Source: Chloroflexota bacterium (GTDB taxonomy: Bacteria > Chloroflexota > UBA11872 > VXOZ01). From it: a DNA stretch of 64,000 bases. The position numbers and the translations under genes were made by a program. Positions within the stretch are counted from its first letter, which is position 1, and every line of letters starts with the position of its first letter. This document shows positions 46,088-46,262 of the stretch, in pieces. The DNA lies in NCBI GenBank assembly GCA_958295775.1, contig CATQHC010000005.1, forward strand, positions 1 to 64,000, read 5' to 3'. Under the pieces are notes generated by a model, which saw nothing but the letters and a program-made list of their open reading frames with translations, did no database searches and was not told where the DNA came from.

Positions 46088-46117
46088 TAGACAGCGTGGC
46101 CGCCCGTATAGTATGAT
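46088..46117 (+). promoter_or_regulatory. Promoter of the 46.1 kb micro-transcript
   Basis: -35 TAGACA (46088-46093), 18-bp spacer, -10 TATGAT (46112-46117). Predicted start near 46124, just before the long Shine-Dalgarno stretch. Confidence 0.55.
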
Positions 46118-46145
46118 GGTGTGCAAGAGAAAGGAGGTGATGCCC

Positions 46146-46193
46146 ATGGATGTTAGTTGTAAATCCAGGGCCGCCTCCGTCAGGTCTCGCTAA
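46146..46193 (+). CDS. 15-aa peptide with full-length anti-SD complement
   Basis: ATG to TAA encoding MDVSCKSRAASVRSR. AAAGGAGGTGAT (46130-46141) matches the complement of the 3' tail of 16S rRNA over 12 bases, with AGGAGG eight bases from the ATG, much stronger than any other gene here. The TAA stop falls exactly in the 4-base loop of the hairpin formed by the last codons and downstream bases. The peptide is basic with one Cys. I do not recognise it; a leader peptide or a small regulatory mRNA is plausible. Confidence 0.5.
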   Translation: MDVSCKSRAASVRSR

Positions 46194-46222
46194 CGAGACC
46201 ACGGAGCGGCCTTAGGGAATTG

Positions 46223-46262
46223 AAGGAGCGCCAGCGGTGCACAGGCACCGGGCGCTCCTTTT
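46223..46262 (+). terminator. Terminator of the micro-transcript
   Basis: Stem AAGGAGCGCC/GGCGCTCCTT (46223-46232, 46251-46260) with an inner GGTGC/GCACC stem, running into TTTT. Confidence 0.75.

Follow-up and report, generated by a model that had tools for sequence, protein, structure and literature searches.

The element in the window and in its genus

The window, by which we mean the whole 64,000-nucleotide stretch of DNA that was analysed (contig CATQHC010000005.1 of a Chloroflexota bacterium, positions 1 to 64,000), carries at 46088-46262 of the plus strand a small element whose parts can all be read directly from the sequence. A sigma-70-type promoter (46088-46117) consists of TAGACA as the -35 box (46088-46093), an 18-nt spacer and TATGAT as the -10 box (46112-46117). 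After a predicted 5' leader of about 4-8 nt follow the Shine-Dalgarno (SD) region AGAAAGGAGGTGAT (46128-46141) and a mini-ORF of 15 codons, MDVSCKSRAASVRSR, which runs from the ATG at 46146-46148 to a TAA (46146-46193 overall). Within the ORF lies the left arm, an internal anti-SD (GGGCCGCCTCC, 46168-46178) that takes part in two helices, both of which covary across the phylum. The stop codon (46191-46193) sits in the CTAA tetraloop of GGTCTCG/CGAGACC, a hairpin that extends to about 20 bp with interruptions; the right arm, CGAGACCACGGAGCGGCCTT (46194-46213), is the partner of the left arm in one of two alternative folds (fold B) and hence an anti-anti-SD. The unit ends in an intrinsic terminator, AAGGAGCGCC...GGCGCTCCTTTT (46223-46262), made up of a hairpin at 46223-46258 and TTTT. 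Direct reading confirms the promoter, the ATG, the 15-codon ORF and the second hairpin with TTTT that had been proposed in a first-pass annotation, as well as the TAA in a four-base loop, whose stem had been put at roughly 18 bp. Rfam gives no match to the window element at the gathering threshold, and ARAGORN places no tRNA-like part there. The best reading of these features is an autonomous mini-mRNA gene with its own promoter and terminator and a predicted transcript.

The same annotation had described a 12-base complement of the 16S tail; the complement is present and perfect, and its length is 14 nt rather than 12, measured against the 3' tail of the organism's own 16S rRNA. A whole-genome search found three copies of AGAAAGGAGGTGAT in the 3.42-Mb genome: the one in the element and two that lie antisense to the 3' ends of its pair of 16S genes (...AGAAAGGAGGTGATCCAGCCGCAGC...). 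The element is therefore, rRNA aside, the sole place in 3.42 Mb with the full 14-nt complement.

Five further species of the genus, a lineage of Chloroflexota MAGs, carry one copy each. The transcript region is 89-96% identical across the genus, with surroundings that align poorly or diverge, and the GACA and TATGAT of the promoter are invariant in the six species, separated by a spacer that varies. Differences within the ORF are all synonymous in the genus (18 of 18 in pairwise comparisons, at four variable sites). In the related MAG G003 a 1-nt insertion in the stop loop removes the TAA and extends the ORF to 43 codons; this is possibly an assembly or sequencing error, and the lost stop counts against the explanation that we prefer below.

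Recurrence across Chloroflexota and genomic neighbours

The layout recurs across Chloroflexota in more than 30 families, usually once per genome; sequence, ORF length (12-30 codons) and neighbours vary between families, and the plan is constant. The strict pattern AAGGAGGTGATGCC(C/T)ATG had a single match apiece in 35 of the 301 Chloroflexota genomes searched; its reversed control gave no match in any of the 301. All strict-pattern loci examined have the same plan of AAGGAGGTGATG, a start codon, 13-24 codons, a stop in a hairpin and a terminator. At E <= 0.1 a covariance model found the element in 82 of 400 genomes, with many of the E values between 1e-10 and 1e-37, and a looser pattern found it in 124 of 400; these prevalences are lower bounds, as families lacking a match may carry variants missed by the patterns. 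Among 40 looser-pattern loci fetched, 39 show the layout and one is an ordinary gene. The model designated R1, which was trained on f16-like forms and from which divergent forms elsewhere would escape, gave only partial or chance matches in 149 genomes of the phylum of a Clostridia locus and in 115 genomes of the phylum of a Lentisphaeria locus. Four loci (L029, L168, L169 and L252) were set aside as chance matches. A mobile or phage element was likewise rejected: the strict motif had ten matches in viral contigs, all without the layout, and the element is usually single copy. One genome holds two different copies (G311:C4:333246 and G311:C7:19664; L163 and L164).

Most families keep the SD form AAGGAGGTG(A/G)TG, with AAGGGGGTG in family f48, and -35 and -10 boxes are found upstream of the SD in other families as well. 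A few bases 5' of the SD, families f16 and f54 (L031, L033-L050 and L053) show the motif GCCGnYCAGGC, and families f48, f58, f60 and f76 show CCGnnYAGGG.

Minus-strand ORFs lie on both sides of the element in the window, and a leader of a downstream gene is ruled out there because no plus-strand gene follows. The earlier statement that the element is not a simple leader is supported for the window genome, with its minus-strand neighbours; in other families the element precedes birA or smpB and may have a cis role. By Pfam, birA lies directly downstream on the same strand in seven families (f14, f18, f21, f34, f42, f43 and f57; loci L284, L285, L287, L290, L291, L296 and L298), and smpB does so in three (f13, f24 and f33; loci L286, L288 and L294), the order in f24 being ctp-element-smpB-ssrA. 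In several of these families only some 15-40 nt separate the terminator from the birA or smpB start codon, which is sometimes too short for another promoter. Such an arrangement would suit a cis attenuator, that is, a translation-dependent leader controlling read-through into birA or smpB, of which the stand-alone copies would be relocated or relic. Against this reading, which we consider unlikely, the element is intact and strongly conserved where the next gene lies on the other strand, the two downstream genes are unrelated, and the element has its own promoter and full terminator everywhere. No neighbour is conserved phylum-wide, and the downstream gene is often on the opposite strand. A cis role is excluded as the general function because the window's genus and several other families (f11, several f16 genomes, f51, f54, f58 and f78) have the following gene on the opposite strand; such a role may have been added in some lineages.

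Alternative folds and the short reading frame

Folding of the window transcript gives z = -5.1, with none of 200 shuffles as good, and recovers two near-equal solutions, SD-ORF pairing (fold A) and ORF pairing around the stop (fold B). In silico, the minimum free energy fold pairs the SD with the left arm, and the centroid fold pairs the left with the right arm. In fold A of the window, GGGCCGCCTCC pairs with GGAGGTG (46133-46139) and GCCC (46142-46145), at -21 kcal/mol; in fold B, GGGCCGCCTCCG...GGTCTCG pairs with CGAGACCACGGAGCGGCC, and left arm with right arm reaches -32.7 kcal/mol. The arms were also seen to have several alternative pairing partners.

Both pairings are visible across the phylum. 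In alignment A2 the SD-spacer segment GGTGATGCCC stands opposite a 10-nt ORF segment in which almost all of the variation is wobble-preserving. Of 73 distinct elements, 50 have in their ORF a perfect 10/10 partner of their own SD-spacer 10-mer, as against 0.25% of shuffled ORFs, and from one family to another the spacer varies in step with the left arm (GATGCCC/GGGCATC, GATGCTA/TAGCATC, GATGCGA/TCGCATC and GATGCGG/CCGC). The same ORF segment is also complementary to a segment 3' of the stop. In the curated rows 97.4% of cells are paired in the helix of SD and left arm and 94.8% in that of left and right arm (the stop hairpin); these rows were picked for best complement, which inflates the raw pairing, a bias that the shuffled-ORF control addresses. 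The covariation scores of the two helices were reached by none of 500 shuffles, with slid-partner controls far lower, and the terminator hairpin has covarying pairs across families too. A hairpin encloses the stop in 81 of 82 SD-free folds, computed over a fold window that takes in part of the terminator.

The first-pass annotation had suggested that the RNA can adopt either of two folds, its left arm being able to bind the ribosome site, and had pointed to RNA folding and to conservation and covariation among relatives as the means of judging the element. Both folds are seen in silico, and in the relatives conservation and covariation hold. On this comparative evidence a two-state switch architecture is well supported, and chance or artefact as the origin of the layout is rejected because of the phylum-wide recurrence, the reversed-pattern controls and the covariation.

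The reading frame, too, is kept open. In 75 of 82 elements frame 0 reaches its stop at a distance of 36-69 nt from the start codon; frame +1 does so in 12 and frame +2 in 4, and these two frames usually stop within the first codons. After the start, AGT and other NNT codons abound in the 82 elements, which gives early stops in the other two frames (ATGA, AGTAG). Stop usage (n = 121) is TAG in 73, TAA in 36 and TGA in 12; nearby long ORFs end in TGA in 73 of 156 cases, against the 12 of 121 in the elements, an avoidance that would be as expected if termination matters.

The product behaves differently. The peptides are polar (for example MDVSCKSRAASVRSR and MSSKRMGVTAGEAR). A short functional peptide gene, as in a dual-function RNA, would account for an ORF that is always open, for the purely synonymous differences within the genus and for an N-terminal motif that recurs, M-(S/D)-x-S, in which AGT codons are used. 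Outside the genus, however, the synonymous share (0.21 in f54, 0.31 in f48, 0.37 in f16b and 0.33 in f2) lies near the neutral expectation of 0.25, the peptides are unrelated between families, and the same RNA segment, the anti-SD arm, is read in different codon frames by different families, as GIT, ASP or RAAS. We therefore hold a peptide gene to be very improbable, and the earlier suggestion of a regulatory peptide mRNA is weakened by this drift at a neutral rate and by the changes of frame. Translation and termination seem to be under selection and the product not.

In one natural variant (L044, genome G215) the TAG has become CAG, and the ORF runs on for six more codons until it meets a TGA within the right arm; the TAG is retained in close relatives. 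This read-through variant shows that the exact stop is not indispensable, and it counts against our preferred explanation.

A proposed ribosome-set switch and its relation to known RNAs

Our preferred explanation, to which we give roughly even credence, is that the autonomous mini-mRNA found across Chloroflexota is a two-state RNA switch set by initiating ribosomes, with the peptide as a by-product. What the comparison shows, read from predicted parts, is an own promoter and terminator, a near-maximal 16S-tail complement, and an open ORF of 12-30 codons that lacks a conserved peptide. One ORF segment is complementary to two partners, the SD and start (fold A, start predicted to be closed) and a stretch 3' of the stop (fold B, start predicted to be open); both helices are maintained by compensatory change, and the stop is enclosed in the fold-B hairpin. 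What the switch senses and controls we infer, and the ribosome-sensing or ribosome-sequestering role raised in the first-pass annotation is likewise putative. The 30S subunits and the internal anti-SD would be rivals for the SD. An ample supply of initiating ribosomes would keep the SD occupied, and each ribosome would cover about 15 codons, such that a terminating ribosome would sit on the left arm, block fold A and leave the start site open; when initiating ribosomes are scarce, the RNA would close on itself. Not the peptide but the RNA itself would then carry the output, in its state, in how stable it is or in how far its arms are exposed, and it would therefore report or buffer the free pool of initiating 30S subunits. 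In birA and smpB lineages with little room for a promoter, read-through into the downstream gene may also be governed by the switch.

Two further readings make different use of the same features. The stand-alone sRNA-like gene with a terminator, the several alternative partners of its arms and the annotation of the nearest Rfam family as an sRNA would fit a trans-acting sRNA, an arm or loop of which pairs with target mRNAs while translation of the mini-ORF does no more than select the exposed arm. We find this quite unlikely, given that outside the SD and start there is no invariant single-stranded seed and that the arms are wholly different between families. A ribosome decoy, a transcript whose sole action is to titrate 30S subunits through its hold on the 16S tail, would agree with a 14-nt complement that is unique in the genome outside antisense 16S and has its own promoter; a pure sponge, however, needs no ORF, no stop in a hairpin and no internal anti-SD that closes the site, all three of which are conserved, and we deem it highly improbable.

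The nearest Rfam family just mentioned, CC2171 (RF01867), is the only one to give repeated alignments along the full length of the element, none of which reaches the threshold: its model scores 11.1 bits in the window and about 24 bits for the best Chloroflexota element, against a cut-off of 75, and neither the window nor any Chloroflexota element scored attains membership at 75 bits or more. Many CC2171 matches in Chloroflexota are merely antisense 16S ends. We fetched four CC2171 copies, two above the gathering score (L307:1201-1374 and L308:1201-1381) and two just below it (L309:1201-1371 and L310:1201-1371); Rfam annotates them as sRNA only, and no annotated gene lies under the match at these loci. 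The L310 copy lies just downstream of hflX, and the L307 copy about 0.9 kb upstream of a 16S rRNA gene.

All four loci have a 16S-tail complement AAGGAGGTGATC (form AAGGAGGTG(A/G)TC), a GTG start, an ORF of 24-26 codons starting VSHC, a stop, a structured 3' part and a terminator. CC2171 thus resembles the element in a full 16S-tail complement directly before the start codon of a short ORF, and resembles about half of the longer Chloroflexota forms tested in that the start-proximal ORF pairs with a pre-terminator segment. The latter helix is clear in f6, f14, f21, f34, f38 and f43, where the element's own 3' part beats all 27-29 swaps; in the window this pairing merges with the stop hairpin. 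Longer forms with this long-range helix, which joins the early ORF codons to the pre-terminator segment and outdoes every swapped partner, are L218, L219, L221, L226, L227, L230, L231, L232, L233, L235 and L251. The GGCAA(T/C)G before the CC2171 terminator resembles families f8 and f18. Unlike the element, CC2171 has an SD-to-ORF complement that is not clearly above shuffles, and model R1 did not find the CC2171 copies (E of 0.2 or worse). As the scores do not establish membership and the CC2171 complement does not exceed shuffles, we speak of the same plan rather than the same family; homology, judged from these alignments, is possible. In the open-access literature neither an account of the element nor a function for CC2171 turned up; sRNA surveys do no more than list the expression of CC2171 (PMC5596092; Rfam note PMC11701678). 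The first-pass view of an undescribed element is supported to the extent that this literature describes no function for it.

Several known systems share parts of the plan. Leader-peptide attenuators (trpL/rnTrpL, the speF leader) also have a short ORF, alternative hairpins, an intrinsic terminator and translation-dependent folding; the element differs in that the window and many relatives lack a regulated downstream gene and in having no conserved run of amino-acid codons. A same-strand gene behind the terminator, an attenuator trait, is absent in the window and present in other families. Dual-function sRNAs (Spot 42/SpfP, SgrS/SgrT) are likewise small RNAs with a short ORF, SpfP also having 15 residues, whereas the element has a peptide that is not conserved, an extreme SD and an internal SD/anti-SD switch. 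Type I toxin mRNAs (hok, tisB) combine a short ORF, a sequestered SD and alternative folds, but the element's peptides are hydrophilic and variable rather than hydrophobic and membrane-active. tmRNA has a short ORF with its stop in a hairpin loop, and smpB adjoins the element in three families, but the element has no tRNA-like part and f24 has a separate ssrA gene. The combination of a stand-alone gene, a complement of the 16S tail along with an internal mimic of it, and a conserved ORF that lacks a conserved peptide is not found in any described class.

The recurrence across Chloroflexota suggests that ribosomes are sensed or buffered in a way not yet described. Tentatively, and with more doubt than about the switch itself, we propose a 'ribosome gauge', a stand-alone RNA gene common to Chloroflexota and, as CC2171, to Alphaproteobacteria. 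In it the 16S tail and an internal tail mimic would compete for one ribosome-binding site, the fold would report the free pool of initiating 30S subunits and feed back on translation or ribosome rescue, and the conserved function would be translation, not the peptide. If CC2171 proves homologous, the element would count as a variant rather than a new class. If the proposal is true, CC2171, an orphan alphaproteobacterial sRNA of culturable bacteria, gains a working hypothesis, because it carries the same plan of SD and mini-ORF; and if the element gauges free ribosomes, the sensing of translation capacity outside model species would become directly testable.
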